A stretch of 54,626 bases of DNA from Lysinibacillus sp. FJAT-14745 (GTDB lineage: Bacteria > Bacillota > Bacilli > Bacillales_A > Planococcaceae), in assembly GCF_001275675.1 (NCBI RefSeq), contig NZ_LITM01000002.1, positions 178,477 through 233,102 on the forward strand, given 5' to 3'. Below, piece after piece: positions 6,274 through 42,470 of this stretch. The notes beneath the pieces are model-generated. The model was given only the letters and a program-made list of their open reading frames with translations, searched no databases and had not been told where the DNA came from. How positions within the stretch are numbered: the first letter of the stretch is position 1; each line of letters begins with the position of its first letter. Position numbers and translations under genes: made by a program.

Positions 6274-6400
6274 GCCGGTAACATTTGCTTTTCCGCCGCT
6301 AAACGTTCAAATTGCGCCGCTAACATCCTCTTTTCCGCCGCTTAATGTTCGAATTGCGCCGCTAACTCCTGCTTTTCCGCCGCTTAACGTGGAAAATACG
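6274..6400. repeat. 21-bp phased repeat array 1 (core GCCGCT)
   Basis: The core GCCGGT/GCCGCT starts at 6274, 6295, 6316, 6337, 6358 and 6379, exactly 21 bp apart. Spacers alternate between a TTGC-ending and a TTTCC-ending type, giving a 42-bp higher-order repeat. It occupies much of the 371-bp gap between the CPBP protease start (6182) and the terminator at 6525. The remainder holds a 15-bp palindrome (6456-6470) and nothing else recognisable. Confidence 0.9.
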
Positions 6401-6524
6401 ACGGTACTCTATATGTTAAGCATATTAAATAGCAGAGTTGAAATCAAGATGTTTTTAATGATAATCATTAAATAATTATCTTTTATAACTAAAAATTGAA
6501 TGTTAATCGGTATGTAAGCATTAA

Positions 6525-6555
6525 AAAAGCGACTAGAAAAAGACTAGTCGCTTTC
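6525..6555 (-). terminator. terminator of the secreted protein gene
   Basis: GCGACTAG arms around AAAAAGA are followed by TTTTTT on the minus strand. It overlaps the stop of the gene ending at 6554. Confidence 0.85.
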
Positions 6556-6955
6556 ATTCTTTATTCGGATTTCGTTCAATAAAATCTTTAATCTGATCTT
6601 TTAATTCATAAACTAAATTAAAATAATGATGCTCATTCATTGCACCCTTCTTTCGCCATTTTTGCATTTCTTGATAGTGGAAAGCGATAAAATAACTTTC
6701 AATCTCACGACGCTCTATCCCTTCCTTTTTTGCCATATCAACAATCGAAAGCCCCTCTTTCCAGTATTGATCATACACTTTTTGCGTGATCCCAAGAACC
6801 TTACAAATAGCATCATAATCATACTTTACGTGGTAAATAAGCTGTCCTTCCTCACCATTTGCATGTTGTTGAATTACATTATTTGCATAACCAATTGGTG
6901 TAAAACTCATTATAAGTATGCTCGTGAGAAATATTTTTTTGAATGGTGCTTTCAT
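6554..6955 (-). CDS. secreted hypothetical protein
   Basis: 133 residues. A signal peptide (KKIFLTSILIMSFTPIGYAN, cleavage likely after YA-N) leads into a small helical domain with a helix-turn-helix-like stretch (GLSIVDMAKKEGIERREIES) and many Lys and Glu. The start chosen is the ATG after AGGAGGTTTAAA; an ATG five codons upstream lies inside that ribosome binding site. Probably exported and free outside the membrane. No family is recognised. Confidence 0.7.
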   Translation of the reverse strand: MKAPFKKIFLTSILIMSFTPIGYANNVIQQHANGEEGQLIYHVKYDYDAICKVLGITQKVYDQYWKEGLSIVDMAKKEGIERREIESYFIAFHYQEMQKWRKKGAMNEHHYFNLVYELKDQIKDFIERNPNKE

Positions 6956-7014
6956 TTTAAACCTCCTCATGTTTCCAATAGTGTGTGAGGTTTTAAAAAA
7001 TCATATTCCTTTGA

Positions 7015-7443
7015 TCACAATACTTTACGAAATGAATAGCACCATTTTTCATACCCTAATCGATCTTCATAAAAGCGATGTGCACTAGTCCTTTGAATAC
7101 CAGACTCCAAAGCAATATAGTGCGCTCCATTTTCTTTGCCCCATTGGTGAAGATCATGCAATAATTTCTCACCATAGCCTCTTGAACGATAGGCCTCATC
7201 CGTTACTAAATCATAAACGAAAATATGGCGTTCACTGTAAAAGTTGACTCTCCAACTTAATCCGGCGACTGCCACAATATTCATGTTTTCGTATAAAGCA
7301 AATAACATATAGCCATCTTGGGTCATTTCCTTTAATAATAGAAGGTACTTTTCTAATGTTAATTCTGTACGAAGCTGCACCATAACAGAATATGCTTCCA
7401 TCCATTCCTGCTGCGTTGTTAATTGTTTAATTGTTACAGTCAT
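7015..7443 (-). CDS. GNAT family N-acetyltransferase
   Basis: 142 residues, a single GNAT domain. The acetyl-CoA loop reads VTDEAYRSRGYGEKLL (R/Q-x-x-G-x-G/A form), followed by HYIALESGIQRTSAHRFYE in the fourth motif. AAAGGAGG precedes the ATG. The gene lies 15 bp behind another GNAT gene, so the two form an operon. It is divergent from a MocR-type regulator that may control both. The substrate is unknown. Confidence 0.88.
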   Translation of the reverse strand: MTVTIKQLTTQQEWMEAYSVMVQLRTELTLEKYLLLLKEMTQDGYMLFALYENMNIVAVAGLSWRVNFYSERHIFVYDLVTDEAYRSRGYGEKLLHDLHQWGKENGAHYIALESGIQRTSAHRFYEDRLGYEKWCYSFRKVL

Positions 7444-7458
7444 TTTTCGAACCTCCTT

Positions 7459-7899
7459 TTACCAATATTTAATAAAATGATATACTCCATCGTCTATTTT
7501 CATCCCAAGCTTCTCATAAAGTTTTTGAGCACGAACGTTGTCTGTCGCTGTTTCTAAACCTATATAACGTGCATCATTCTGTAAACAGTATGAATAACAT
7601 TGTTCAATTAGGCCCTGCGCTACACCTTGTTTCCTGGCATGCTTTGCTACAAATAAATCGTTTAAAATAAATGCCTTTTTCATCGCAACTGATGAAAAAA
7701 TAGGATAGAGCTGGACAAAACCAACTGGCTGCGCATCCACATAAGCTAGAAAAATTACCGACTCCTCCTTATTTATACGCTCCATAAGAAACTGCTCAGC
7801 TTGCTTTAAGTCAGATGGTTGACCATAAAATTCTCGATAGGCATTAAATAATGGCACCACGTCTCCAACTGTTGCTAAGGTTACTGTACAAATTTCCAT
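7459..7899 (-). CDS. GNAT family N-acetyltransferase
   Basis: 146 residues. LNDLFVAKHARKQGVAQGLI is the acetyl-CoA binding strand and loop, and RYIGLETATDNVRAQKLYEK with LGM is the end of the fold. It is the first gene of a two-acetyltransferase operon; its start is ~110 bp from the divergent MocR regulator at 8012. That spacing is typical of a regulator controlling its neighbour. The substrate is not predictable; polyamines, amino acids or antibiotics are the family's usual ones. Confidence 0.88.
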   Translation of the reverse strand: MEICTVTLATVGDVVPLFNAYREFYGQPSDLKQAEQFLMERINKEESVIFLAYVDAQPVGFVQLYPIFSSVAMKKAFILNDLFVAKHARKQGVAQGLIEQCYSYCLQNDARYIGLETATDNVRAQKLYEKLGMKIDDGVYHFIKYW

Positions 7900-8011
7900 T
7901 ATCGTTTCTCTCCATTTCTTTTAATATGTAATTCTAGTATTATGATAAAAAACAAACTGACATTTAAAAAGAAACAGTTCTAGACATTTCAACATGTCAA
8001 GGAGGGCCTTT

Positions 8012-9400
8012 ATGGAGGATTTTATTTTCTTATTCACAGACGAAGAGGCAAAATATAAACAAATTTATCAGCAAATCAAATGGTTAATCGAACAAGGGAG
8101 ATTGTCAACGAATGATTCTCTTCCTTCTATTCGAGGGCTAGCCGAAACTTTACATGTCAGTCGGAATACTACTTTAACTGCCTATGAGCAGCTCGTTGCG
8201 GAAGGATACATACGTGGTGAAGGGCGAAAGGGTTATTTCGTCAATGAATTTGAGCAAGTGTTTCTACAGGAGGAGGAACGACCAAGCCTTACGCAAAAAA
8301 AAACAGCTAACAATGGAAATATCATCATCGACTTTCGGGCTGGCGCTGTCGATCAACAGCATTTTCCACTGAAAGTATGGCGTCAAATCGCCAATCAAGT
8401 ATTACCTTTACAAAAGTGCTATGAATATGGTGATCCTTTCGGCGAGCCACTTTTAAAGGAACAGCTTGTGCATTATTTACTTCAAGCTCGTGGGGTTCAT
8501 GTAAATGAAGAGGACATTATTATCGGTAGCAGCACGCAACAAATGTTAATTTATCTAGGCTTCCTATTAAAGCAAGATTTCCCAAGTGTTATATTAGAAG
8601 ACCCTGGCTACAACGGTGCTCGAGAAGCATTCAAGCTGCATGGCTTTCAAATAGAGACATTACCTGTGCTGGAAAAAGGTGCACAGCTTGAACATTTAGC
8701 GCATTTACATTCGCGCCTACTCTATGTCACACCTTCTCATCATTTCCCATTCGGTGTTTCCATGAGCATTCAGCAGCGACAAGCTTTAATTCAGTGGGCC
8801 AAAAATGTTGATGGCTATATACTTGAAGATGATTATGATGGAGAATTTCGTTATACGCAGCAGCCATTTCCTGCTCTCGCCTCCATCGACAAGTCACGTG
8901 TGATTTATATAGGAACATTTTCCAAATCATTTTTACCAGCTATTCGTTTAAGCTATATGGTGCTACCGAAAGCTCTTGTTCAGCCATATAAAGAACGCTT
9001 TGCTCATTTTGAACATAACGCCTCGTCCTTACATCAATTAACAATGGCGAAATTTATGGAGCAAGGTGAATGGACACGACATATTAAAAGAATGCGCATC
9101 ACCTATAAACATAAAATAAATACTCTTGTAGAGGCACTTAACAAGCAATTCGGAGAAAAAATTACAATACTTGGAGAGCAATCTGGTCTTTATATATTGG
9201 TCAAGGTGCATACCTCATTTTCAGAAGAGCAGCTCATTCAAAATGCACAACAATACGGAGTCAAGGTCTACCCAACGAGCCCATATTTTCTACAACAGCC
9301 AAGCGCCGTGCCTATTATCCAATTAGGCTTTAGTAAATTAAAAATGGAGGAAATCGTCCTCGGTGTGCAACTGCTGAAAAAAGCTTGGATCACAGCATAA
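8012..9400 (+). CDS. MocR/PdxR-type GntR regulator with aminotransferase domain
   Basis: 462 residues. An N-terminal GntR winged helix (~10-75, PSIRGLAETLHVSRNTTLTA) is joined to a fold-type I aminotransferase-like domain. PLP-site landmarks are EDDYDGEFRY and the putative Schiff-base Lys in GTFSKSFLPAIRLSYM. MocR regulators use a PLP-bound amine ligand to switch a nearby promoter, often the divergent one, here the two GNAT genes. The start is the ATG after AAGGAGGG, not the ATG six codons upstream. The shared upstream region (7900-8011) contains TCTAG-centred direct repeats 55 bp apart that could be operator half-sites, but this is weak. Confidence 0.88.
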   Translation: MEDFIFLFTDEEAKYKQIYQQIKWLIEQGRLSTNDSLPSIRGLAETLHVSRNTTLTAYEQLVAEGYIRGEGRKGYFVNEFEQVFLQEEERPSLTQKKTANNGNIIIDFRAGAVDQQHFPLKVWRQIANQVLPLQKCYEYGDPFGEPLLKEQLVHYLLQARGVHVNEEDIIIGSSTQQMLIYLGFLLKQDFPSVILEDPGYNGAREAFKLHGFQIETLPVLEKGAQLEHLAHLHSRLLYVTPSHHFPFGVSMSIQQRQALIQWAKNVDGYILEDDYDGEFRYTQQPFPALASIDKSRVIYIGTFSKSFLPAIRLSYMVLPKALVQPYKERFAHFEHNASSLHQLTMAKFMEQGEWTRHIKRMRITYKHKINTLVEALNKQFGEKITILGEQSGLYILVKVHTSFSEEQLIQNAQQYGVKVYPTSPYFLQQPSAVPIIQLGFSKLKMEEIVLGVQLLKKAWITA

Positions 9401-9402
9401 TA

Positions 9403-9427
9403 AGCCATAACTGTAATGGTTATGGCT
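9403..9427 (+). terminator. likely terminator of the MocR gene
   Basis: AGCCATAAC and GTTATGGCT arms with a 7-base loop lie directly after the stop. The T-rich tail (ACTCTTTAT) is weak. Confidence 0.6.
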
Positions 9428-9620
9428 ACTCTTTATCTCGATAATCATATGTTTCATCAGGCGAATTTAACATAGCGCTCAAATGTATGCTCTATTTTCT
9501 CGATATTGTTAATATATTTTAAACCCTAGCGAGTCTTTTGGTGACCTGATTGCGGTTTTCTCTTGGACCCGAGCCGTTCTCACGCTAACCCGATCAATTT
9601 TCTTTTGAATCCAATAAAAA

Positions 9621-9655
9621 AGGAATCTGCACAGGCTGCCTCTGCACAAATTCCC
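9621..9655 (-). terminator. likely terminator of the Eis-type gene
   Basis: GGAAT-GCA-AGG arms pair with CCT-TGC-ATTCC around a short loop, and TTTTTT follows on the minus strand. It sits ~10 bp after the stop at 9666. Confidence 0.65.
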
Positions 9656-9665
9656 CATAATTTTT

Positions 9666-10889
9666 TTAAAAATAATCAATAAACGTTGGAATGCCTACTG
9701 GTAGTACGGTCTCTAGTAGTGCAATTTCAATAGCATTGCCGTGTAAACGCTCGATTTTTTCTAAATAGCTCGGTCGTTTATAGCCTAGTAACATAGTGGC
9801 GAGTGTTTGAACCGTGAGCTGAATAGCATTTTCAGACTGTGTCTCACTCACCTTTTCAACGGTAACTTTTCCATTCTGCTTCGTTATGACAAATGTGCCA
9901 TTATTCCATGCCACAATGCGATCACTAACAGCGAGTCGAAGTTGAAAATCATTTCCCGTGAATGGGTAGCGTAACAGAAATTCTTTTACGTCTACAATTC
10001 GGGCCATAAAATAAGGGGACACCTTTTGAATAATTTCACTATCCTCTAACAAAAAGGCAACGGCTTCATTGCCGGTTGTTTTACCATAGACATTGTAAAT
10101 CATCGAGCTATGTGCGGAGACAAAATTCCATAAGCCTTTACGCGCCTCTTCCTGCAAATAGACAATTTCATCGATGTAATAATTTTCCTCCATAATACGA
10201 TAAAACATATAGCCTTGGGGTATTTCATCTTCGTCATAATACACAGCAGCCTGGAGGTTCACATCACTATCGATAAATTTTTCCTCCCAAAAATCTTCCT
10301 GAAACTTTTCATTCCAAGCGATACTATTACGAACCATGACACCGTGGGTCTTCGTTGAATAATGTGCATAAATGGTCATAACGTCTTCATGTTTCGGATC
10401 GACACGGCGGATCTTTCCATTTAGGCCACCATAGCGAGGAAGCTGCGTATCCTTGATTTGATATTCCACAATATCACTCATAATTTCCCAGCCCCTTTTA
10501 CGGTAATACGGGATAGAATATGGAAATAAATAGGATATACATTGTCCTTCGTTTCGCATCCGCTCCAGGCTCTCAATAATCAGGCTCTCCATCAAACCAT
10601 GCCCAGAATATTCAGGGTACGTTCCGACAGCAGTAATGCCTCCCATTTCATAAATCTTTCCATGAACATTTACTTCAAAAGGTAGACTTAAAATTTGAGA
10701 TACAAGATGTGAACCATCAAACCAACCAATTGCATGACCTTCATTAAATTGCTTACTTTTGGCATTCACAAAGCGACGATCCTTATGAATGGACATGGAC
10801 ATTTGGAAAACATAATTAAGCAAATCTATAAACTGTGCCATTTCATCTAATCGAATTTCTCGCATGACTAAGCCTTTACGTTGATTCAT
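9666..10889 (-). CDS. Eis-like GNAT acetyltransferase with SCP2-type C-terminal domain
   Basis: 407 residues, the usual length of Eis family proteins. An N-terminal GNAT domain contains GGITAVGTYPEYSGHGLMES (acetyl-CoA loop). It is followed by a second GNAT-like domain and a C-terminal sterol-carrier-protein-like domain (~300-400). Mycobacterial Eis acetylates aminoglycosides and proteins; Bacillales homologues are mostly uncharacterised. The ATG overlaps the TGA of the upstream ATPase gene (ATGA), so the two are translationally coupled. GAGGAGCG precedes it. Confidence 0.85.
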   Translation of the reverse strand: MNQRKGLVMREIRLDEMAQFIDLLNYVFQMSMSIHKDRRFVNAKSKQFNEGHAIGWFDGSHLVSQILSLPFEVNVHGKIYEMGGITAVGTYPEYSGHGLMESLIIESLERMRNEGQCISYLFPYSIPYYRKRGWEIMSDIVEYQIKDTQLPRYGGLNGKIRRVDPKHEDVMTIYAHYSTKTHGVMVRNSIAWNEKFQEDFWEEKFIDSDVNLQAAVYYDEDEIPQGYMFYRIMEENYYIDEIVYLQEEARKGLWNFVSAHSSMIYNVYGKTTGNEAVAFLLEDSEIIQKVSPYFMARIVDVKEFLLRYPFTGNDFQLRLAVSDRIVAWNNGTFVITKQNGKVTVEKVSETQSENAIQLTVQTLATMLLGYKRPSYLEKIERLHGNAIEIALLETVLPVGIPTFIDYF

Positions 10890-11614
10890 GATTCTCGCTC
10901 CTCATCAAATAACTCTGAAAAAATGGTTTCTGGTGCATTTAAAAAGCGCTTCGTAACAATGTAATGTATAGTATCTTCATAACGAACAGACTCAATGTCC
11001 CCATTATCAAAACTATAGATTGTAGCATTTGGATAGCCAAGCAAAATAGGTGAATGTGTGGCGATAATAAATTGCGCCTCATGCTCTAAATCTTTCATAA
11101 TTTTAAGGAGACTAAGCTGTCTAGTCGGTGACAACGCTGCTTCAGGCTCATCCAATAAATAAATGGCTTTCCCCTTAAAGCGATGCATAAATAGCGATAA
11201 AAAGGACTCGCCATGTGATTGATGATGTAGGGACTTACCACCAAAAGCGGTATATTTTCTTGGATCTTCTAACAAATCAATATGACTTGCAAATTGATAA
11301 AATGTTTCCGATCGTAGGAAAAAACCATTCGTCACTTTCGGCATCCATGACAATCGGATATATTCCCCGAGTGAAGACTCCGCCTTATGTACTTCATATA
11401 AATTTTGACGACCACCACCCGCTGTATTAAAATCACAGCGATCAGCTATAGCCTCCAACAATGTTGATTTCCCAGAGCCATTTTCCCCAACAAAGAAGGT
11501 CACATTCGTAGGAAACTCTAGCTCCTGTAAATCCTGCAAGCTTGGTATATTAAAGGGATACTGATCTTTATCTTCTATAGCTCTCTGTAATATCTTACAT
11601 GATTTTAAATACAT
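10886..11614 (-). CDS. AAA/ABC-type ATPase (COG3910-like)
   Basis: 242 residues. Walker A is GENGSGKSTLLEAIA (~42-56), an ABC-like signature region reads HQSHGESFLSLF, and Walker B is YLLDEPEAALS, followed by a His switch in IIATHSPIL. There is no membrane partner, so this is the soluble, SMC/RecF-like class often named predicted ATPase. It is coupled by a 4-bp overlap to the Eis-type acetyltransferase. The role is unknown; single-ATPase genes of this class are widespread and not by themselves a defence signature. Confidence 0.85.
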   Translation of the reverse strand: MYLKSCKILQRAIEDKDQYPFNIPSLQDLQELEFPTNVTFFVGENGSGKSTLLEAIADRCDFNTAGGGRQNLYEVHKAESSLGEYIRLSWMPKVTNGFFLRSETFYQFASHIDLLEDPRKYTAFGGKSLHHQSHGESFLSLFMHRFKGKAIYLLDEPEAALSPTRQLSLLKIMKDLEHEAQFIIATHSPILLGYPNATIYSFDNGDIESVRYEDTIHYIVTKRFLNAPETIFSELFDEERES

Positions 11615-11652
11615 TTTGTTTCCTCCCTTACTACTATTATACCGCGCTTAAA

Positions 11653-12564
11653 CTAATCTGAAACCGACCTTTTCTCTAAATACAAGCTACACACGCCAAA
11701 AATAAACAAAAGACTTATTCCTATCAAGGAAACGGGCGACCACGATAGCCTTGTATCAAACAGCTGAAAGAAAAACGTGAATATTGGTACAAAGCATAAA
11801 CTCATCATTACGCTCAAGGGCGAACAATACTGAATGCCTATCTGCAATAAATACATCGGAAGCATGACACCCACTGCTGTTACTGCGATTATCCATGAAA
11901 TATTTCCCGAGAAATATTTAAAAAATATGTCGAAAGTCGCGAAAAAAGATAGTAAAATTATGCCATAATAGCGATTTGCTATAATCATTGAAGTCGTCCA
12001 GCCAGCCTCACTTAATCTCTTAGAATATATCGTACATAGTACAGCCCCAATTCCACAGCCAACACTTGCTATTAATGCTAAGATTACGAGCCATGTTATG
12101 TCCATTTGAACAGCTGATTTCCCACTAACAACTGCTACTATTAATATAGTACAAGCGATAAATGTCCCTGTGGCAATTACCCATTGTGCTTTCGGAATTG
12201 TTTCCTTGGCGAAAACGGCTAACACTAAGACAAAAAGTGGTCCAATGCCCATCTCAAGCGCACTTACAATCGCTGATTCTACATATTTTAAAGCGAAATA
12301 AAACCCCATACAGGCTAACACGGATGCGACATTCAACTTCACTACAACATTTATATTTCCCTTCCACCGATTAGCTTGTTTCTGTTTGCGTGCAAAAAAA
12401 GAGAAATAAATAGCTGTCATGAAAAAACTAATACCCGTAAATAAAAATGTTGGCACTTCTTGTACTTGCTTCGCATAGAAAACCTGGCTCATCGATGTTA
12501 GTAGCGCTGATATAACAAGTGCCATTAACCCCACTGTCGTTACCTGTTTTTTTGTTATTTCCAT
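11653..12564 (-). CDS. EamA/DMT family transporter under T-box control
   Basis: 303 residues with ten predicted membrane helices in two EamA repeats, e.g. SALEMGIGPLFVLVLAVFA at the end of the first. The family exports or imports amino acids, other metabolites and drugs. AAGGGGGA precedes the ATG. It is the only gene between the T-box leader (12685-12922) and a clear gap, so the T-box should control it. That makes an amino-acid substrate likely, and the leader's specifier reading (CTC) points to leucine or branched-chain amino acids. Confidence 0.88.
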   Translation of the reverse strand: MEITKKQVTTVGLMALVISALLTSMSQVFYAKQVQEVPTFLFTGISFFMTAIYFSFFARKQKQANRWKGNINVVVKLNVASVLACMGFYFALKYVESAIVSALEMGIGPLFVLVLAVFAKETIPKAQWVIATGTFIACTILIVAVVSGKSAVQMDITWLVILALIASVGCGIGAVLCTIYSKRLSEAGWTTSMIIANRYYGIILLSFFATFDIFFKYFSGNISWIIAVTAVGVMLPMYLLQIGIQYCSPLSVMMSLCFVPIFTFFFQLFDTRLSWSPVSLIGISLLFIFGVCSLYLEKRSVSD

Positions 12565-12684
12565 CCCATTGTCCCCCTTTTTTTGACACTAATCTTTATG
12601 GTTTAACATTTTGTCGATGTAGTTGGGCTTTCAAGAAGCCATTTCTAGCGAAGCGTTTCCCATTTCTCTCGTTCCATTTCCCAA

Positions 12685-12922
12685 AATAAAAAAACCTCGT
12701 CTCAAAAAAACATAGAGACGAAGTTATCCGCGGTACCACTCTGATTAGCTAGAAAGCTCACTTTACTATAACGGTAGTTGCCGTTCATGCTTATTTTATT
12801 CAGCATGAAAAACTCCTGGACGAGTTCACAAATGGTTTGCGATGATTTTCACCAGCCATCACCTCTCTAAAGCAAACTACATCCATTACTACTTCCAATC
12901 ATTGTTAAATTATTTTCGATAC
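12685..12922 (-). promoter_or_regulatory. T-box leader with terminator (specifier probably CTC, Leu)
   Basis: On the minus strand the order is: stem I with AGTA on the 5' side and GAA-CTC-G on the 3' side of the specifier loop; the upper arm GTTTGC/GCAAAC; further stems; the T-box signature AGAGTGGTACCGCGG (complement at ~12728-12742); then the terminator stem CGTCTC/GAGACG with TTTTTTT. Uncharged tRNA binding at the specifier and at the UGG bulge would favour the antiterminator. CTC fits the known rule that a purine follows the specifier; TCG (Ser), one base later, does not. About 120 bp separate the terminator and the transporter start. Confidence 0.93.
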
Positions 12923-12951
12923 ATCATAATTCATTTCAACTTTTTCGTCAA
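12923..12951 (-). promoter_or_regulatory. sigma-A promoter of the T-box transcript
   Basis: TTGACG (complement at 12946-12951), a 17-bp spacer and TATGAT (12923-12928) read on the minus strand. The start point would fall just before stem I of the T-box. Confidence 0.8.
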
Positions 12952-13104: not shown

Positions 13105-13138
13105 CTAGGTTAATAAAACATTTATAAGGAGAAGAATT

Positions 13139-23361: not shown

Positions 23362-23460
23362 AAAAAAGCATCTCCTTCATTTCACGAATTCACTGTAGTA
23401 GTCGGTTATAAAAGAAAAAGGTTACAACATTTCCAACATTTTTATCATTCCCCTAAAAAA

Positions 23461-23495
23461 GCCGTGATTCTTTTTACAATAAAGAATCACGGCTG
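23461..23495 (-). terminator. terminator lying beyond the 21-bp repeat array
   Basis: AGCCGTGATTCTTT pairs with AAAGAATCACGGCT, and TTTTTTA follows on the minus strand. It is the first terminator after the GDPD gene (stop at 23813), so the repeat array between them would be in that gene's 3' untranslated RNA. Confidence 0.85.
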
Positions 23496-23531
23496 TCACT
23501 CATACTATTTGGATGTGTATTTTGTTCGGTT

Positions 23532-23794
23532 CGCGGGTATTCGTTCATCTTCCGCGGGTATTCCCCTGCTTCGCGCGGGTATTCACTCATCTTCCGCGGG
23601 TATTTTCCTGCTTCGCGCGGGTATTCGTTCATCTTCCGCGGGTATTTTCCTGCCTCGCGCGGGTATTCGCTCACCTTCCGCAGGTATTTTCCTGCCTCGC
23701 GCGGGTATTCGCTCACCTTCCGCGGGTATTTCCCTGCTTCGCGCGGGTATTCGTCCATCTTCCGCGGGTATTTCCCTGCTTCGCGTGGGTAATT
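23532..23794. repeat. 21-bp phased repeat array 2 (core CGCGGGTATT)
   Basis: Twelve uninterrupted 21-bp units start at 23532, and a degenerate thirteenth starts at 23784. Odd units end in a CATCTTC- or CACCTTC-type spacer and even units in a CCTGCTTCG- or CCTGCCTCG-type spacer, giving a 42-bp higher-order period. Because 21 is a multiple of three, several frames stay open through it, but none has a start with a ribosome binding site. Confidence 0.95.
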
Positions 23795-23812
23795 ACATTA
23801 AATTACATCAAA

Positions 23813-25591
23813 TTAAAACATGAATTGCAGTAGATTTAGTATACGCTGTAAAAAGTATTCACGCTCATTTTGCTTTTTTCGTATATCCAAAGCTATATCT
23901 GGGAGATCAGTAATGACTCCATTGACATTTTTCCGAATGAATTCTTGTAATGATCGGTCTTTATTCAATGTCCAGACAAATAAATCAATCTTTTGTTGCT
24001 TCACCTCTGCAATTAGTTGATCTGTTACCCATGCTTCCTCAAGTGAAATAAAATCAACTGTTTCATCCATAGGCCCGATATTTAAAGCATAGACAATCCC
24101 AACACGTAAGTTCGGCGCCAATTTTTTTAACTGTGTCATCATTTGTGGATCTGATGATTGCACATAGAACGTATCGAGCACCTTATAAGCCTTTAGTTTT
24201 TCTACTAACTTGGGCAATATATCTTCCGTTTCTTTACCATGAACTTTCAATTCAATTAGTAAGGAAACATTTAGCGTTTTTGCTACTTCAATAAAATCAT
24301 CTAAAGATGAAATTTTGTCATTAAAGCCATTAGCATGAATCGTTAATGTCTTTAATTCCCCGAGCGTCATATTGGCGATAACACCATTTTTACCAGTTAG
24401 TCTTCTTAATGTTTGATCATGAAATACAACGAATTGTCCATCTACTGTTTGCTGAATATCGATCTCAATTAGATCTGCACCTGTACTTGCTGCACTGACA
24501 AGGCCACTGATCGTATTTTCCACATTACCGGTCGTGTAGCCACGATGAGCAATAATTTTGGTGTCCGGTGCATAGACACTTTTCTCTAACGAAATACTAT
24601 TCATCACACTTAATACGATGAAAACAACCACAACGATGAAGGACAATGGCTTATAGCGACGTTTCTTAAATTTCGGTGTAAACCTTGACTTGCCTAACAC
24701 AGATGTATTATAGGTAACAGTAACAGCCACCATTACTTGTGAAAACATTGCTTGCAATAAACTAAATAACACGACGAAGACCATTTCTAAAAAAGCAAGC
24801 GTAATTCCTGCTGTGACAAGTGCTGTACTCGGTATCAAACGTTCCAAAATATATAATGGCAAGGTGCTTATAATCGTAATTCCAAGCATCACAAGTAAAT
24901 GAACCGTAACAATCATAGCGAATAATCCAAGTAGTTCTAACAAGCCCCGCATTGAAAAACGCCAGCTCTGTATTAATGAACGTAGTATTGATATTTTGGG
25001 CTGGATTGTAAAAATCGGCAAAGCCAAAATGCTACGTATCCCCACGATTACTAAAACAATTACTACAACAGCATAAAGTAAACGACCCGAACGACTGCTC
25101 AATATTTCATCTATTAAAAAATGCGGGATAGACATGGCTTGAGTTAATGTTAGTGGAAATATAAATGAAGTTAATGGCAATAAAAGGGCAATATAAATAA
25201 TGAAAAATATAACTTGAATACTAAAAAAAGAAATAACCTTACGATTGAGCTGCTGCCATATGTGTAGATATCGATAGCGAATTCCCCTTTGTTGATAATA
25301 GGCCATTAAAAAAAGAAAGCCCATTTCATAATAAATAAATAGCAACATGAGCATGATCAAAAGAATGATCATCGAGATGACAAAGGGATGCACCATAAAG
25401 CTTTGAATATTTTGCTCCGTAATATGTGTGTAGCCCGTTACTCGCAGCATTAGCTTAAATACGATAGCCGTCATAGGCACAATTAATATAAACTGAAATA
25501 ACTTAATCAGTGCGAAAACCTGTAAATAATCAATGCGATACATATAAATATTGTAGACAGCTTGTCGCATTACTTGTCCCTGTTTGTGCAT
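23813..25591 (-). CDS. membrane-bound glycerophosphodiester phosphodiesterase
   Basis: 592 residues. The N-terminal ~330 residues hold about eight membrane helices (the GDPD-associated membrane domain). The C-terminal catalytic TIM barrel starts with IAHRGYTTGNVENTI and has the metal and acid residues of GDPDs in LIEIDIQQTVDGQFVVFHDQ and LLIELKVHG. It would cleave glycerophosphodiesters from lipid or teichoic-acid turnover to glycerol-3-phosphate at the membrane. The start is the ATG after GGGGTG. It is a single gene; its 3' end is followed by the repeat array. Confidence 0.92.
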   Translation of the reverse strand: MHKQGQVMRQAVYNIYMYRIDYLQVFALIKLFQFILIVPMTAIVFKLMLRVTGYTHITEQNIQSFMVHPFVISMIILLIMLMLLFIYYEMGFLFLMAYYQQRGIRYRYLHIWQQLNRKVISFFSIQVIFFIIYIALLLPLTSFIFPLTLTQAMSIPHFLIDEILSSRSGRLLYAVVVIVLVIVGIRSILALPIFTIQPKISILRSLIQSWRFSMRGLLELLGLFAMIVTVHLLVMLGITIISTLPLYILERLIPSTALVTAGITLAFLEMVFVVLFSLLQAMFSQVMVAVTVTYNTSVLGKSRFTPKFKKRRYKPLSFIVVVVFIVLSVMNSISLEKSVYAPDTKIIAHRGYTTGNVENTISGLVSAASTGADLIEIDIQQTVDGQFVVFHDQTLRRLTGKNGVIANMTLGELKTLTIHANGFNDKISSLDDFIEVAKTLNVSLLIELKVHGKETEDILPKLVEKLKAYKVLDTFYVQSSDPQMMTQLKKLAPNLRVGIVYALNIGPMDETVDFISLEEAWVTDQLIAEVKQQKIDLFVWTLNKDRSLQEFIRKNVNGVITDLPDIALDIRKKQNEREYFLQRILNLLQFMF

Positions 25592-34601: not shown

Positions 34602-34740
34602 TTATCGGCGGTTTTGAACGTTTTATCAGCGATGTTTGAGGTTTTATCAGCGATTCTTGCACTTTTATCAGCGATGTTTGGCGTTTTATCAGCGATTCTT
34701 GCACTTTTATCAGCGATGGGCTCTTTTAACAGCAGTTCTG
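34602..34740. repeat. 21-bp phased repeat array 3 (core TTATCAGCGAT)
   Basis: TTATCRGCG cores start at 34602, 34623, 34644, 34665, 34686 and 34707, each 21 bp apart, with a weaker one at about 34727. GTTTG-type and TCTTGCAC-type spacers alternate, giving the 42-bp higher-order period. It lies between the DUF4260 and YrdB-like genes on the same strand. Confidence 0.92.
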
Positions 34741-36092: not shown

Positions 36093-36210
36093 TCATAGCC
36101 CCCTAAAAGTTTTAACATATTATAGCATTCATACTTCAAGATAAATCAATGTTTCGTGAAATTAAAGTTGTTTAATTTATTATCAAGAGCTAAATGTAAA
36201 AAGCCATAAA

Positions 36211-36257
36211 AAAATGGGTGATATATATTAGTTAACAATAATATGTATCACCCTTTT
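36211..36257 (-). terminator. terminator of the XRE regulator gene
   Basis: AAAATGGGTGATA and TATCACCCTTTT arms with inner A/T pairing and a T-rich tail on the minus strand. Confidence 0.75.
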
Positions 36258-36306
36258 ACTACTTGTCAACAATCGCTCCTTATAATGGAATAACGAAAAT
36301 ACTTTA

Positions 36307-37152
36307 TTAATTTTGCACCCTTTTCATTAATCGCTTTAATTTATTTTCTGTATCCGTTTCCTCTACTGGTGTATAAACACTGCACCGTAAATCCATCTCA
36401 CCTTGAACCTGAAGAGAAGTTAAATTAAACAACATTTTGCCTGCTTTAGCATGTCTGAATTCAATTATCATTTCTGGAGCTTTGCTCACTTGACTTTCTT
36501 GCCACAAATCCTGAAATTCTGAATGTGAATGACTCATTTCATTAATAAATTGGTTGTACCATTCATCGCCTAAATAGTGTCCATAATAGGTACGGAAAAT
36601 AGCAAGAAAACCTTTCGCAAAATGCTCCCAATTGACGGCCAATGCTTTGAATTCTTTTCTAGTGAACACTAAACGAATCAAATTTCTTTGATCATTCGAT
36701 ATTTGTTCAAAATCTAAAAAAACATGAGCAGCTGCCGGATTCCAGCCCACTATATGGCAATGTCGATCTGTAATGATAGTTGGACAATATGTTAATTCAG
36801 TTAGTATTCGCTTTAAAGAGGGGCTAAGCTCTGATTGATTATTTTTTTGATTTGTAATTTCTGATTTTGTCCCTAATGCCAGGTCATATAAGTAGTCTCT
36901 TTCATCATTATTTAATTGTAGAGCTGTAGAAATACAATCAAGTACGATTGAAGAAACTTTTATATCTCTTCCTTGCTCTAGCCATGTATACCAAGTGGTA
37001 CTTACACCTGCTAATTGTGCAACTTCTTCTCTTCGTAATCCAGGGGTTCTTCTCCGGTTTCCAGCAGGTAAACCAACAGTCTCTGGCTTGATTTGAGCAC
37101 GTTTAGCTTTTAAGAATGTCGACAAAGCTTCAAGCCTAGTATTATCATTCAT
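36307..37152 (-). CDS. XRE regulator with MmyB/MltR-type ligand-binding domain
   Basis: 281 residues. The N-terminal helix-turn-helix (~30-70) has the family motif RRRTPGLRREEVAQLAGVST then TWYTWLEQGRD. The C-terminal ligand domain (~105-270) opens with LTYCPTIITDRHCHIVGWNP. A crystal structure of one relative (MltR of Chloroflexus) showed a bound fatty acid. The gene is divergent from a FabF-like gene with a palindromic operator between, so fatty-acid-responsive control of that gene is a reasonable inference. The start is the ATG after GGGGAG. Confidence 0.88.
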   Translation of the reverse strand: MNDNTRLEALSTFLKAKRAQIKPETVGLPAGNRRRTPGLRREEVAQLAGVSTTWYTWLEQGRDIKVSSIVLDCISTALQLNNDERDYLYDLALGTKSEITNQKNNQSELSPSLKRILTELTYCPTIITDRHCHIVGWNPAAAHVFLDFEQISNDQRNLIRLVFTRKEFKALAVNWEHFAKGFLAIFRTYYGHYLGDEWYNQFINEMSHSHSEFQDLWQESQVSKAPEMIIEFRHAKAGKMLFNLTSLQVQGEMDLRCSVYTPVEETDTENKLKRLMKRVQN

Positions 37153-37207
37153 TTTTAAAACTCCCCATCTTATCAATTTATTCTATTAGTAATTATACCA
37201 GGATAAA

Positions 37208-37242
37208 CTATTACTTGTAATAGGATAAAAGAGATGTAAAAT
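37208..37242 (+). promoter_or_regulatory. fabF promoter with 16-bp palindromic operator
   Basis: CTATTACTTGTAATAG (37208-37223) is a perfect palindrome, and a second partial copy (CTATTAGTAAT) lies ~30 bp to the left. The -35 TTGTAA (37215-37220) falls inside it and the -10 TAAAAT (37237-37242) follows after 16 bp. It is a good site for the divergent XRE regulator. Confidence 0.7.
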
Positions 37243-37274
37243 ACAAGTAAATCATTTATATGGAGGTATAAAAA

Positions 37275-38510
37275 GTGGAAAGAGTTGTGATTACTGGTAT
37301 GGGGATAGTGTCTCCTTTAGGAAACAACATCCAAACATTTTGGAACAATTTGATTAATGGGGAATCTGGTATATCCACTATTGATACATTTGATGTTACT
37401 AATCATAAGACAAAAATTGCAGGTATCGTCCAAGGATTTGATGCGGATGAAGTTTTAGGAAAGAGTGAAGCTAAACGTTTGGATCGTTTTGCTCAATTTG
37501 CTTTGGCTGCAGCTGAACAAGCTTGGGTAGATTCTAAGTTAGACCTTGATCATATAGATGTAGAACGGTTAGGCGTATATGTAGGTTCAGGTATAGGTGG
37601 AATTGAAACCTTGATTGAAAATATTGATACGCTTAGACAGAAAGGGCCTAGAAGAGTTAGCCCAACCCTAATACCTGCCATTATTTCTAATGCTGCTGCA
37701 GCTCAAATTAGTATCAAGTGGAACGCAATGGGACCTTCTTTATCGCCCGTTTCTGCTTGTGCAATTGGAAATACAGCTATTGGTGAGGCCTTTAGACTAA
37801 TTCGTTCTGGAGAAGTTGACGTTATGTTCACAGGTGGAACAGAGGCAGCTATAACAGACTTATCAATAGCAAGCTTTAGTAATGCTACAGCATTATCAAG
37901 AAGAAACGATGATCCCACTAAAGCTAGTCGTCCATTTGATGAAAATCGAGATGGATTTGTCATGTCAGAAGGAGCTGGAATTCTAATCCTAGAATCTTTA
38001 TCTCATGCTTTACGTAGAGAGGCAAAGATTTATGCAGAAGTCATTGGATACGGAGCAAGTTCAGACGCACACCATATCGTAGCTACGCATCCGGAAGGTA
38101 AAGGGGCCTACCTTGCAATGAAATCAGCTTTAAAAAATGCAAATTTATCGCCTGAAGAAATTGATGTTATTAGTGCCCATGCAACAAGTACAAAAGTTGG
38201 AGACATCTCCGAAACGATGGCTATTAAGCAGCTGTTTGGTAAACAAGCTTATCAGATTCCAGTAACAGCTAATAAATCTATGCTCGGTCATATGTTAGGG
38301 GCAGCAGGCGGAGTTGAAGCAATTGCTTTAGCAATGAGTTTAAAGGAAGGTATAATTCCTCCTACAATTAACTTAGAAAATCCTGATCCATTATGTGATC
38401 TCGATTATGTACCATCTATTGCTCGCCAAGTGAATATAAATACGGGTCTGTCTAACTCATTCGGTTTCGGAGGTCATAATGCGGCTATTGTATTAAAGAA
38501 ATACGAGTGA
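37275..38510 (+). CDS. fabF: beta-ketoacyl-ACP synthase II (FabF-like)
   Basis: 411 residues, full length. It condenses malonyl-ACP with acyl-ACP. Catalytic residues are present: Cys in SACAIGNTAIGEAF, His in SAHATSTKVGD, Lys and His in NKSMLGHMLGAAGG, and the C-terminal NSFGFGGHN. The motifs differ from housekeeping FabF (ACATGTNAIG, NAHGTSTPxND), and no other fab genes are near, so this is probably a specialised second copy. The start is GTG after GGAGGT. It is monocistronic with a strong terminator. Confidence 0.92.
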   Translation: MERVVITGMGIVSPLGNNIQTFWNNLINGESGISTIDTFDVTNHKTKIAGIVQGFDADEVLGKSEAKRLDRFAQFALAAAEQAWVDSKLDLDHIDVERLGVYVGSGIGGIETLIENIDTLRQKGPRRVSPTLIPAIISNAAAAQISIKWNAMGPSLSPVSACAIGNTAIGEAFRLIRSGEVDVMFTGGTEAAITDLSIASFSNATALSRRNDDPTKASRPFDENRDGFVMSEGAGILILESLSHALRREAKIYAEVIGYGASSDAHHIVATHPEGKGAYLAMKSALKNANLSPEEIDVISAHATSTKVGDISETMAIKQLFGKQAYQIPVTANKSMLGHMLGAAGGVEAIALAMSLKEGIIPPTINLENPDPLCDLDYVPSIARQVNINTGLSNSFGFGGHNAAIVLKKYE

Positions 38511-38523
38511 ATAAACTTTCTCT

Positions 38524-38564
38524 AATAAATCTAACCGTTTCTTAAGGAAATGGTTAGATTTATT
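38524..38564 (+). terminator. fabF terminator
   Basis: AATAAATCTAACC and GGTTAGATTTATT arms with a short loop. The remaining ~150 bp to the next terminator show nothing recognisable. Confidence 0.85.
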
Positions 38565-38720
38565 CCGTTCAATGGCCCGTTTGTTGAACAAGTAGAAAAC
38601 GGAGTACCCTTAGATTTTCCTATGAGCTTTTGAATGCATCCGCCCACATTTGCGGACTAATGCTTATTTAGACTTCAATAGTATATAACTTTATTGTTAG
38701 TACATAATCAAGAGAAAAAG

Positions 38721-38750
38721 AAAATCCACTCTTTTTCAAAGTGGATTTTC
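38721..38750 (-). terminator. terminator of the two-component operon
   Basis: AAAATCCACT and AGTGGATTTT arms, immediately after the small membrane protein gene ending at 38759. Confidence 0.85.
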
Positions 38751-38758
38751 TCATCATA

Positions 38759-38980
38759 TTAAATAAGTCGCTTAATCAGCGTTTCATATAACGCAACAAT
38801 TAATAAGCCACCAAGTATAGGGGTTAAAGAACTAAAACTGAAATAAAAACCTCCATCATAGTATTGTCCTAAGAAATGAAATTGCAGCCATGGAACGCCA
38901 TATGTTTCACCGACACCGTATAAAAAAACTGTGCTAAATAGAAACAACGCTAGACATTTAATAAATTCATTTCTCTTCAT
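38759..38980 (-). CDS. small membrane protein
   Basis: 73 residues with two hydrophobic segments (CLALFLFSTVFLYGVG and LTPILGGLLIVALYE). The start is the ATG after GAGGTGA, three codons inside the longest frame. It lies 10 bp behind the lipoprotein gene and so is the last member of the four-gene regulator-kinase-lipoprotein operon. The function is unknown. Confidence 0.7.
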   Translation of the reverse strand: MKRNEFIKCLALFLFSTVFLYGVGETYGVPWLQFHFLGQYYDGGFYFSFSSLTPILGGLLIVALYETLIKRLI

Positions 38981-38990
38981 ACAATTCACC

Positions 38991-40058
38991 TCACTTAACG
39001 ATGGTCATTTGTTTTGCGTATGCTACAAGGTCTTCGATTGTTAACTCAGAATTTCCAATAAAAATGCTATATTGATAACCGTTTTCCTGCCAGCTAATAC
39101 TACGGAATTTATTCTCATCCATTACAGTACCTTTTTGACCTCGGATGTCCATTTCTTTTTCACCTATAATAGGCTCTACCTTAGTATCATTACTATTTGC
39201 TTTAAAAACTGTTACTGAAATATCTTGCTGACCATTCTTTGCATAATTAAAGGTATACTCTGAACGATCTTCTATCCCTTTATCTAATGAAATACCCTCC
39301 AAAGTTAGTCCATTTACTTCTGGCACCATTAAAAATTTGCCTAGCTGTTCTTTCACTGTATCCAGTGTTACTGACTTAGATTCAGGTACACTTATTTCTT
39401 CCACTTTTGTATCCTTTGGAATATCAATTGTAAATTGGGCATCATCAATTTTTGCCTTTTCATCCATTTTCGTATACTCTGTTGTCATTTTATTTCCAGC
39501 ACTTTTCGTTATTGTTTTTAACGTTACCCATGTTTTTTTATCGACCCATACTTCGATATCACCTATTAAAGTATCATCTTTTTTAGCTTTCGCTACAATT
39601 TTATACGTATCTCTTCCAGCAATCTTCTCCTCTCCGGCAATTTTCACATCATGTGTATCCTTTACTGCATTAAATAGTATTTCTAACTGATCTCTTTGTG
39701 ATGGGAGTTCATCTAAGCCATTTTTGCTAATATCTATTTTATGAACAGTGTTTTTAACAACATCATACATAATAACCTGTGAGCCATTGTTGACTGCGAT
39801 GCTATGCTCACCATTTTCAGCTGTTGACTCAATACGTCGTTTACCATCTTTAGTCCACTCTTTGACTTGAGCTTTTCCACCAACCTCGCCCATATCCATT
39901 GTGTATTCAGCGTAATAAGTAAGTGGTTCTTTCGTTTCCTGTAATGCGTGATCAATAATTTCCTGTGGTGAATATGACCCTTCTGTATTACAACCTACTA
40001 AGCTAAATGTTAGTGCGGCAACTAAACCTGCTGCACGTAATGATTTTTTCCAATTCAT
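38991..40058 (-). CDS. LolA-fold lipoprotein of the two-component operon
   Basis: 355 residues. A lipoprotein signal (AALTFSLVGCNTE, lipobox LVGC) is followed by a beta-rich LolA-like domain (~30-215) and a C-terminal domain (~230-350). It resembles the sporulation and stress lipoproteins of Bacillus that share the outer-membrane lipoprotein carrier fold. It would sit on the outer face of the membrane. The start is the ATG after AAGGAGAG. It directly follows the kinase gene, so it may help sense the signal, which is inference. Confidence 0.82.
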   Translation of the reverse strand: MNWKKSLRAAGLVAALTFSLVGCNTEGSYSPQEIIDHALQETKEPLTYYAEYTMDMGEVGGKAQVKEWTKDGKRRIESTAENGEHSIAVNNGSQVIMYDVVKNTVHKIDISKNGLDELPSQRDQLEILFNAVKDTHDVKIAGEEKIAGRDTYKIVAKAKKDDTLIGDIEVWVDKKTWVTLKTITKSAGNKMTTEYTKMDEKAKIDDAQFTIDIPKDTKVEEISVPESKSVTLDTVKEQLGKFLMVPEVNGLTLEGISLDKGIEDRSEYTFNYAKNGQQDISVTVFKANSNDTKVEPIIGEKEMDIRGQKGTVMDENKFRSISWQENGYQYSIFIGNSELTIEDLVAYAKQMTIVK

Positions 40059-40060
40059 TA

Positions 40061-41512
40061 TCAAATCTCTCCTTTAAATGGTGGCAGCCAGCAAAGTACA
40101 GCTGTTCCATTGCTTTCTTTCGAGACAAGCTCTACTGTCCCACCATGCTTTTCTATTATTTGTTTTGCAATATTTAATCCTAAACCAGTGCCGCGTTCCC
40201 CAGCCTTTGTTCGTGCTGTATCTGCTTGGTACATGGGCTCGAATAACTTCTCAATATCCTCTTTTTTTACACCTTGCCCGCTATTTTGCACAATGATATA
40301 CATACCATCCTGCTTTATTAATGCATTTGATACAAAATCAAAGCACCCTATAGGACACTGTCCAGCATTCACGGCTGCTAAACGTATCGTTGTACCTACT
40401 GCTCCATAGCGCCAAGCATTACTCATTAAATTGTCGATCACCCGTTGAAGCTGCTTCGGATGTACTGCATACATTCCCTCTATGTCACAAGTAACTTCAA
40501 GCATAAATCCTTGATCCTTGCAAAGCTGATCATAATCAGACAGTGCCATTTCAAAAAACTCCGCCCCATCTACTTCTACAAGTTCTAAATGATAGCTTGT
40601 CGATTGCAGTAAAGTGTACATTAGTAAATCCTCTAACATATGCTTCATCGTTTCTGACTTTGTTAAAATAATTTGTCGGTACTCGTCTTGCTGTTCTTCT
40701 GATAACGCCTTGCTTTGTAAAGACTCAGCATATGCTTGAATAGCTGTAAGAGGTGTTTTCAAATCATGGGAAATACTCGCAATCATTAACTCCTTTTGCT
40801 GTTGTTCAGCTTTTAAATGAGTACGCGCAGTTTCAATTTCGTCCTGCATGGCAAGAAAGGTTTGAGCAAGTTCTCCAATTTCATCTTTTCTTGCCACTAA
40901 ATTTGATTCCACATGCTCCCCCTTTGCAAAAGCACGCATTAGCCGCATCAGTTCATGTAACGGTCGATTTAATTTACGATTAAGCAGCATCATAACTGCA
41001 AAATAAATAAGAAGAAATAATAATATAGAGCTTACTATTACAAGCCAAGAACGACTTTCTACGCCTTTTACCCAATCCGTCCTCACTAATTGAATCTCAT
41101 AAATCCCAAGCAATTCTCCATCTTGATAAACAGGTTCTTTATAAGTAAAGGCATTGTAATTTTGCTTTAGCTCATATAAACCTTTAAAAATACTTTCTTT
41201 CGAATCAAACACCAACACCGATTTCAATGGATTTGAAGAATACAAAAACAAGCCTGATTTCGAGTAAAGTGTAATTGCAAGATGATCATTCGTTAATGCT
41301 TCTATATCTTTTTTATCCGCATTTTTTGTATAATACATAGGATTTTCGAGAACAGATTTTACCTGATTGAGCTCTGTTAATTTTTCGAAATACTCAGCAA
41401 CGTTTTTATCTTGATAATAGGCATTAATCCACACATAAAGGCTATATGCACCTGTTATCGGTAAAACCATCACAATGAAAAAAGTAATGAGTAACCATGT
41501 TTTAATCTTCAT
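40061..41512 (-). CDS. membrane sensor histidine kinase (HAMP, HisKA)
   Basis: 483 residues. Two membrane helices (~5-27 and ~155-178) frame an extracellular sensor (~30-150). HAMP follows (~180-232), then the H-box SISHDLKTPLTAIQAYAESL (phospho-His ~250), the N-box NLMSNAWRYG, QNSGQGVK (D/G box) and GERGTGLGLNIAKQI. Its ATG overlaps the stop of the response regulator by 4 bp. The signal is unknown. Confidence 0.94.
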   Translation of the reverse strand: MKIKTWLLITFFIVMVLPITGAYSLYVWINAYYQDKNVAEYFEKLTELNQVKSVLENPMYYTKNADKKDIEALTNDHLAITLYSKSGLFLYSSNPLKSVLVFDSKESIFKGLYELKQNYNAFTYKEPVYQDGELLGIYEIQLVRTDWVKGVESRSWLVIVSSILLFLLIYFAVMMLLNRKLNRPLHELMRLMRAFAKGEHVESNLVARKDEIGELAQTFLAMQDEIETARTHLKAEQQQKELMIASISHDLKTPLTAIQAYAESLQSKALSEEQQDEYRQIILTKSETMKHMLEDLLMYTLLQSTSYHLELVEVDGAEFFEMALSDYDQLCKDQGFMLEVTCDIEGMYAVHPKQLQRVIDNLMSNAWRYGAVGTTIRLAAVNAGQCPIGCFDFVSNALIKQDGMYIIVQNSGQGVKKEDIEKLFEPMYQADTARTKAGERGTGLGLNIAKQIIEKHGGTVELVSKESNGTAVLCWLPPFKGEI

Positions 41513-42207
41513 AATAGTTCACCGATAAAGCGGTAACCCTTGCCCCATACTGTTTGTATATAATATGGTGATTTGACTGGATCTTTTAGCTTTTCTCGTA
41601 GCGCCTTTATATGTACTGTGACTGTATGTGTGTCATCTACGCTCGCCTGTTGCCAAATATGCTGATAGAGCTCTTCTTTTGAAAAAGTTTGGCTTGGATT
41701 TTTCGCAAGTAGTTTTAACAGAGCGAATTCCTTTTGTGTTAAGGCAAGTTCTTTATCTTCAAGCCGCACTGTTTCCTTTTGCCAATCAATTTTTAAGCCG
41801 TGTACAAAGGATGTTACATCTTCCGTTATTTCTTTTTTCGTATAACGTTTCCAGCGGCGTAAGTGTGAGGCTACACGTGCCTTTAACTCCTCTAAGCTAA
41901 ACGGTTTCGCAATATAATCATCAGCGCCCTGCAAGCCCTCAACCTTATCTGCCTCTTCCTTACGCGCACTCATCATTAAAATAGGAACATCACTTTCCCA
42001 ACGAATATTTTGACAAACCGTAAGACCATCCATCTCAGGTAACATCCAATCGACTAACACTAAATCGAACGTATCGGCTTGAAAATCAGCTAGCCCTTCA
42101 AGTCCTGTTGTTGCCCAAGTAATTTGGTATCCCTCTTGCTCAAGCGTATCCTTCACAATACGTCCAATCGCCGTATCATCCTCAATCAGTAATAGCTTTT
42201 CTTTCAT
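41509..42207 (-). CDS. OmpR-family response regulator
   Basis: 232 residues from the ATG after CAGGAGGAAA. The receiver domain has the acidic pair in LLIEDD, the phospho-Asp in LVLVDWMLPEMDG and the Lys in DYIAKPFSLEEL. A C-terminal winged helix ends in VDDTHTVTVHIKALREKLKD and GKGYRFIG. The 64 extra codons of the longest frame are translated repeat-array DNA and are not part of the gene. It is the first gene of the operon; the 21-bp array 4 lies ~90 bp upstream. Confidence 0.94.
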   Translation of the reverse strand: MKEKLLLIEDDTAIGRIVKDTLEQEGYQITWATTGLEGLADFQADTFDLVLVDWMLPEMDGLTVCQNIRWESDVPILMMSARKEEADKVEGLQGADDYIAKPFSLEELKARVASHLRRWKRYTKKEITEDVTSFVHGLKIDWQKETVRLEDKELALTQKEFALLKLLAKNPSQTFSKEELYQHIWQQASVDDTHTVTVHIKALREKLKDPVKSPYYIQTVWGKGYRFIGELL

Positions 42208-42296
42208 CTGTTTTCCTCCTGAACTAACCTTACTATGTAAAAAGACATTTTTTCTGAACTTTACACTTTCTTTATAATTACCATAGATCTGTTTTT

Positions 42297-42470
42297 CCGT
42301 CACTTCTCGTTTTTTATCCGTCGTTTGGCTCGGCCTTTCCGTCGCTTCGCCTTTTCTTTCCGTCGTTCTGCCCAGCCTTTCCGTCGCCTTCTTTTCCATC
42401 CGTCGTTCTGCTCGAGCTATCCGTCGCTTTATCTTTTCTTTCCGTCGTTCTGCCCGGCCTTTCCGTCAAT
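42297..42470. repeat. 21-bp phased repeat array 4 (core CCGTCG)
   Basis: CCGTC cores start at 42297, 42318, 42339, 42360, 42381, 42400, 42421, 42442 and 42463: all steps are 21 bp except one of 19. Spacers alternate TTCTGCCCGGCC-like and CTTTTCTTT-like, a 42-bp higher-order period. It lies between the response-regulator promoter region and the pit terminator. Confidence 0.93.

Follow-up and report, generated by a model that had tools for sequence, protein, structure and literature searches.

Why should four short tandem arrays of unlike sequence, lying within one stretch of a bacterial genome, keep the same 21-bp step and all face the same way? The stretch comprises 54,626 nt of Lysinibacillus sp. 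FJAT-14745 (contig NZ_LITM01000002.1), and 'the window' below means the whole of it. An initial annotation had described four arrays in which a short core recurs every 21 bp, with one 19-bp step in the last; direct reading, Tandem Repeats Finder (TRF) and core spacing all confirm that they are real. New here are the constancy of the core while the spacer drifts, and the leading-strand orientation of two core families, F1 and F2, which switches around oriC and dif and on which the annotation was silent. We propose, with a probability of roughly 0.4, that the arrays are rows of one-way binding sites for a putative protein, with a reading direction that follows the replication fork. The four arrays, all intergenic by open reading frame (ORF) call, are:

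6273..6390, minus strand: array 1, core GCGGCG (minus-strand reading), five cores, four 21-bp steps, two spacer types (direct reading, TRF and core spacing)
23532..23794, minus strand: array 2, family F1, core AATACCCGCG, 13 cores, twelve steps of exactly 21 bp, alternating spacers (42 bp)
34602..34740, minus strand: array 3, F3-like, core ATCGCTGATAA, seven cores, antisense to both flanking plus-strand genes
42294..42470, minus strand: array 4, family F2, core GACGGAWAG, nine cores, seven 21-bp steps and one 19-bp step

Array 3 steps by 18, 21, 21, 21, 21 and 22 bp, its two odd steps belonging to degenerate end units. Besides F1 (array 2), F2 (array 4) and F3 (YGATAAA, which the array-3 core resembles), the families include that of the array-1 core and no fewer than two others. 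The alternating 42-bp period ascribed to all four is clear in arrays 1, 2 and 3 (identity at lag 42 and lag 21 of 0.84/0.55, 0.92/0.60 and 0.87/0.77, respectively) and weaker in array 4 (0.61/0.54); it is not universal, since some F1 arrays of the closed genome G015 are plain 21-mers. The core strand is minus in 4/4 window arrays, their plus strand being pyrimidine-rich. We take minus to be the leading strand in the window, because 38 ORFs lie on it as against 13 on plus and the GC skew is -0.11.

Array orientation and the replication fork

The gene dnaA was located in all 12 closed genomes searched and served as the origin mark. F1 arrays were counted in six closed genomes and F2 arrays in G007 and G015, the listed match places being joined into arrays by hand; seven other genomes with F2 matches lie outside the count. 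All 38 F1 arrays were on the leading strand (12/12 in G007, 11/11 in G015, 7/7 in G002, 3/3 in G019, 2/2 in G022 and 3/3 in G020), the query strand being minus before the terminus and plus after it. F2 gave 37/37 in G007 and 22/23 in G015. Together, 97 of the 98 arrays counted are leading, against a gene fraction of 0.746 (binomial p 1.8e-11); the ORFs of the G015 stretches number 771 leading and 262 lagging. Exactly one dif-like site was found in five genomes, and the switch in orientation brackets dif in G007, G015, G002 and G022; in G007 the last plus array is at 2.633 Mb, dif at 2.789 and the first minus array at 2.888. Each of the three G019 arrays falls between the origin and dif; the arms of G020 were set from dnaA plus half the genome length, not from dif. 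In the window's own genome, six contigs carry at least two F1 loci, and each contig has them in a single orientation.

Gene strand could produce such a pattern if arrays simply copied the direction of the gene upstream, in which case about 19 of the 62 arrays with context (41 in G007, 21 in G015) should be lagging. All 62 are leading. Their neighbours, taken from a simple ORF caller run after array masking, so that a few may be wrong, are leading on both sides in 34 cases, convergent in 18, lagging upstream with leading downstream in four and lagging on both sides in four, with one side unknown in two. Because the 18 arrays in convergent gaps and the four between two lagging-strand genes are leading without exception, we conclude that orientation is set by replication and is not a copy of gene strand.

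This tight polarity is a property of F1 and F2, since neither of two control classes exceeds the gene fraction. Among the F3 matches listed in G015, 26/35 were leading (a hand count; 11/15 in a smaller set), below F1 and F2 combined (p 2e-5), and a class of arrays with a period near 36 bp gave 21 leading, 11 lagging and one ambiguous in G015, again below F1 and F2 (p 4e-7).

Constant cores and dispersed loci

Family membership in the mismatch analysis was decided by likeness to one hand-entered whole reference unit per family. In F1 (18 TRF-found arrays, 360 units) the lowest nine-column mean mismatch was 0.023, compared with 0.191 elsewhere in the unit (column permutation p 0.0004), and differences from the consensus affect 1-4% of units in core columns and 9-41% in spacer columns. 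The corresponding values for F2 (47 arrays, 1203 units) were 0.107 and 0.240 (p 0.017). In both families the quiet columns coincide between different arrays, a coincidence reached by none of 2000 random rotations, and the F3 core is also kept. When the half-units of 45 arrays were compared, identical positions formed one run (combined p 7.5e-8; 11/45 arrays with p<0.05 alone); in array 2, positions 1-10 are identical, as are 2/11 elsewhere. Slippage of whole units cannot let the spacer drift and still preserve the core, which is therefore likely to be under selection, and the many arrays that follow terminators, together with those antisense to both neighbours, suggest that it is selected as DNA.

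F1 has 181 steps of 21 bp, 13 of 19 bp and none of 20 or 22; F2 has 131 of 21 bp, 21 of 19 bp, one of 20 and one of 22. Counts of 19-bp steps are not counts of independent events, being in part copies of one event within higher-order units such as one of 103 bp (4x21+19).

How common this architecture is was assessed by a TRF scan for arrays of at least 55 bp over 1.595 Mb, of which 1.195 Mb came from G015 and 400 kb from the contig that holds the window. Of 120 arrays, 57 had a 21/42-bp period, 38 a period of 35-37 bp and 23 others, with two doubtful; the same thresholds gave no array in 1.58 Mb of Markov order-1 simulated sequence, so the arrays are not chance. The expectation of a genome-wide excess at 21 and 42 bp is thereby borne out, and with it a common length rule across unrelated cores, except that 35-37 bp is a common period as well. 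Part of the G015 sequence was picked around known F1 matches, and array density is better taken from the contig, whose first 400 kb hold 15 arrays of the 21/42 class. The second class is likewise intergenic, has a unit like TCTGTGCGAAAGCGAAGCGACAGCAACAAATGTTTTA and occurs in G000 contig C21 and in G015 (for example L054:1322-1987).

Sequence relatedness between families was sought in 28 pairwise tests of consensus units, none of which stayed significant once corrected for their number (lowest uncorrected p 0.026). The cores are, as had been stated, unrelated, and one ancestral unit behind all families is rejected. The accompanying claim, local amplification rather than dispersal, does not survive. 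Array-2 DNA as a query hits 43 overlapping places, or about 20 loci, in its own genome and matches 20 of 61 genomes, all 20 within the 32 of the same genus (own genome included); among the matches listed, dispersed repeats reach 37 loci per family and genome. At six F3 loci (five in G007, one in G015) the upstream end is common to all and the downstream end to five; the order of spacers is identical in five, and one pair is duplicated in the sixth.

Small samples were examined from other genera. Two of six Sporosarcina loci (L085 and L086) follow the same plan with a 20/40-bp step and the core TGGCGT:

L085:5882-6150, Sporosarcina 20/40-bp array, core TGGCGT
L086:982-1350, Sporosarcina 20/40-bp array, core TGGCGT
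L086:6148-6200, Sporosarcina 20/40-bp array, core TGGCGT

Several arrays (L204, L205, L210, L212 and some G015 flanks) adjoin what by eye looks like another dispersed element, with the motifs GTTGATTTCCGTTCC and GGGCGACTCC. A run of N adjoins an F2 array at G000:C21 near 267.9 kb, and arrays may on this account break assemblies. The available text on Lysinibacillus irui (PMC11166776) reports 350-391 tandem repeat regions per genome without describing them. A literature search, with most subscription papers beyond its reach, returned no recognised description of these arrays.

Sites and neighbouring genes

The following inverted repeats lie beside arrays 1, 2 and 4:

6523..6552, minus strand: inverted repeat with T-run, likely the terminator of the upstream minus-strand gene 6554-6970, preceding array 1 (by eye, ORF call)
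23459..23495, minus strand: inverted repeat with T-run downstream of array 2 (by eye, ORF call)
42494..42526, minus strand: terminator hairpin with T-run of the upstream minus-strand gene 42536-43552, preceding array 4 (by eye)

Gene 23813-25591 has array 2 between its end and its terminator (identified by eye); because the inverted repeat is downstream of the array, the array is probably transcribed together with the 3' end of the gene. Array 4 lies between the terminator of gene 42536-43552, which we take to be phosphate-permease-like, and the promoter region of 41509-42207, presumably a response regulator. Arrays create long ORFs of their own, of 119, 106 and 94 aa, at window 23464-23833 (both strands) and 42208-42399 (minus), the last seemingly extending the response regulator at its N terminus. 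These ORFs are probably spurious and may be annotated elsewhere as hypothetical proteins.

The array-4 site is occupied in most of the Lysinibacillus sequences examined. A core-anchored search found F2-like units in 11/15 Lysinibacillus sequences (window included), from 4 to 48 units, five columns of the comparison being the search anchor and no evidence by themselves. By eye, the units are flanked by a terminator and a promoter region, both of them conserved. The four sequences in which this search found no units differ among themselves: L070 has a TRF array at the site, and by eye L074 has irregular units, L077 appears empty and L081 keeps a single relic. At the array-3 site, 21-bp arrays are present in L070, L073 and L074, that is, at 3/11 loci where the neighbouring gene was found.

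Over the 57 arrays of the class, 50 are clear of ORFs with at least 100 codons beyond the array (no masking); the other seven lie inside such ORFs, and two of these ORFs resemble true genes. A co-oriented gene is found upstream in 53 of 61 arrays for which the upstream side is known, with a terminator between gene and array in 37 of the 53 (home-made finder). Divergent gaps are avoided (4/60 arrays, 127/661 in the background, p 0.014) and convergent gaps are in excess (18/60, against 114/661, p 0.02).

At gathering scores, Rfam gave three matches in the window, none over an array. Matches to RNA families were seen at:

44699-44766 and 44808-44874, minus strand: two adjacent Bacillaceae-1 RNA matches (RF01690), 61.2 and 75.5 bits
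12711-12911, minus strand: T-box leader (RF00230), 133.5 bits

Binding platform or selfish repeat

The most likely account is that these are STAR-like dispersed repeats (STAR, Staphylococcus aureus repeat) with asymmetric cores spaced at two helical turns and occupied by putative direction-sensitive proteins. A sequence-specific protein, one per core family, would bind each core; a step of two helical turns would put all bound copies on one face of the DNA, and the asymmetry of the core would give the row a direction. Copy number would change by in-register slippage, and rows opposing the fork would either not be installed or be lost. That direction may serve a moving machine, for which the fork itself, a translocase and head-on polymerases are candidates. 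Since the rows align with the fork and not with genes, the data suggest that the use or the making of the arrays is coupled to the fork. Helical phasing at two turns, which the initial annotation had put forward, is supported as a possibility; its dimeric binder is not indicated, the cores not being palindromes. A bolder version, in which unrelated asymmetric cores in protein-coated rows from origin to dif tell any machine the direction of the fork, so that architecture and not sequence is the signal of a chromosome-wide sign system, we consider unlikely.

Several observations weigh against binding in rows read by the fork. One F2 array (G015:C1:2046751-2047064) opposes the fork. The F2 core is less sharply conserved than that of F1, and F3 keeps its core yet is no more polar than genes. 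Lone cores inside genes in the G015 stretches have no polarity (6 leading and 10 lagging for ACCCGCG, 5 and 6 for GACGGAWAG), which means that the motif does not by itself mark a direction; outside genes in the same stretches, lone ACCCGCG is leading in 0/3 cases. Lone intergenic GACGGAWAG is leading in 7/7, and these copies are possibly relics of arrays. Density also varies widely, with only four arrays of the class per 400 kb in G001 as against the 15 of the window's contig, zero F1 matches and six weak F2 matches in G001, and no F1 match in 12 of the 32 same-genus genomes, from which it follows that no core family is essential. Finally, several core families would need several binders.

The main rival, a serious contender that we place only a little below the binding account, needs no host reader. 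It sees the arrays as a selfish, fork-coupled minisatellite, lengthened by slippage and spread from locus to locus in the form of single-stranded lagging-strand template, a route that would fix their orientation; the 21-bp step would be inherited, since indels break the register of homogenization and substitutions do not. The common ends and spacer order of several loci, higher-order units such as that of 103 bp and the strongly uneven density between species all fit this explanation, and avoidance of divergent gaps is what a dispensable spacer should show. Slippage, however, copies whole units and cannot spare a core, whereas in F1 the core columns show roughly one-eighth of the variation of the spacer columns, and F3 and the 36-bp class, which also occupy many loci, are less polar. 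Nor does either strand fold much. Compared with shuffled sequences, the mean z over the 57 arrays was -0.27 for the leading-sense and -0.09 for the lagging-sense strand with DNA parameters, and -0.53 and -0.59 with RNA parameters; the lagging-sense strand was the more stable in only 19/57 (DNA parameters, Wilcoxon p 0.005). The structure-driven expansion that had been offered as an alternative thus has little in its favour, and expansion by hairpins is rejected, both for the weak mean z and because the strand bias is opposite to that needed for hairpins on the nascent lagging strand. Spacers recur within arrays and are not unique in the manner of CRISPR.

Explanations by transcription or translation fare worse. 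Polar insulators, in which a pyrimidine-rich, unstructured antisense RNA loads Rho and halts head-on transcription, would explain the excess in convergent gaps and the composition of four F2 arrays, whose lagging-sense strand is 75% pyrimidine with a C-G skew of 0.33 (the rest of the G015 intergenic DNA has 53% and 0.11). Yet F1 (11 arrays) has GGG on that strand and a skew of 0.13, near background, F3 (14 arrays) has a skew of 0.10, and Rho needs neither a strict 21-bp step nor an invariant core; we regard insulators as improbable. RNA elements of 3' untranslated regions would suit the co-oriented gene upstream of most arrays and the position of array 2 before its gene's terminator, and with RNA parameters five leading-sense and nine lagging-sense strands of the 57 arrays do fold at z below -2. 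Such elements are decidedly improbable when a terminator intervenes in 37/53 cases, four arrays run antisense to lagging-strand genes on either side, the mean z is about -0.5 and Rfam is silent over the window arrays. Seven codons make 21 bp, and protein-coding heptad repeats, live or decayed, would place translations in one register; some open frame exists in 49/57 arrays, and seven lie in long ORFs. But 19-bp steps shift the frame within arrays, so that no single open frame is preserved by changes in multiples of 3, open frames occur on both strands and more often on the pyrimidine (47) than on the purine strand (32), the two Sporosarcina loci step by 20/40 bp, and none of the four ORFs tested had a Pfam match over the cut-off (best E 0.009). 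Coding heptads are therefore ruled out as the general account, being scarcely credible, and the arrays are not all decayed coding repeats.

Guidance of a DNA translocase deserves comparison because of the orientation from origin to dif. KOPS (FtsK orienting polar sequences) are described as a short, dispersed, single motif, asymmetric and pointing on each arm from the origin towards the terminus. SRS (SpoIIIE recognition sequences) are of the same kind. The 97 of 98 F1 and F2 arrays resemble both in orientation. Here, however, arrays alone are polar, lone motifs in genes of the G015 stretches are not skewed, and the cores are several and unrelated; by eye, moreover, F1 and F2 places in G007 are not crowded towards dif. 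A KOPS-like single motif is rejected on the lack of polarity of lone cores in genes, and a guide sequence of the KOPS or SRS type is far-fetched. Iteron arrays of plasmid origins are protein-bound direct repeats about two helical turns apart; the spacing is alike, whereas our arrays occupy many chromosomal loci.

Among known repeats, the nearest in kind are the STAR elements that Purves et al. (2012; PMC3532100) described in Staphylococcus. In the available text of that paper these are interspersed intergenic direct repeats with a conserved motif and locus-specific spacers, which grow and shrink in copy number and in some strains have two types of spacer at one locus; their number differs strongly between species, and no function was known at that date. 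The likeness extends to dispersal over many intergenic loci, a conserved core and spacers that are locus-specific and homogeneous within a locus, the six F3 loci with common spacers being the exception. The arrays are not STAR, because unit length differs (about 50 nt for the STAR tandem unit, 21/42 bp here), and their several unrelated cores are other sequences (the STAR motif itself was not searched). The STAR authors describe no frequent transfer between loci, in contrast to the common ends and spacers of the F3 loci, and the text available uses neither 'orientation' nor 'leading strand'. Two other systems are more distant, as far as the available texts describe them. The TAACTGA repeats of Beggiatoaceae (PMC4679880) are likewise abundant intergenic direct repeats of a bacterial genome; they are 7 bp long and stand mostly just upstream of start codons, with a translational role suggested. 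Borgs, archaeal extrachromosomal elements, have dozens of tandem direct repeat regions, intergenic and genic, on strand-biased replichores (PMC9605863), the repeat sequences being almost always unique to one region, with no common unit length seen in that text.

A near-invariant asymmetric core, an exact two-turn step and an orientation set by replication make a bound platform and a selfish minisatellite separable. Function is undescribed in the available text on the closest known repeats, the STAR elements (PMC3532100). If the arrays of Lysinibacillus are bound, long polar tracts coated with protein would lie between the genes of its chromosomes; if they are not, they would be a clear case of repeat orientation fixed by the replication fork.

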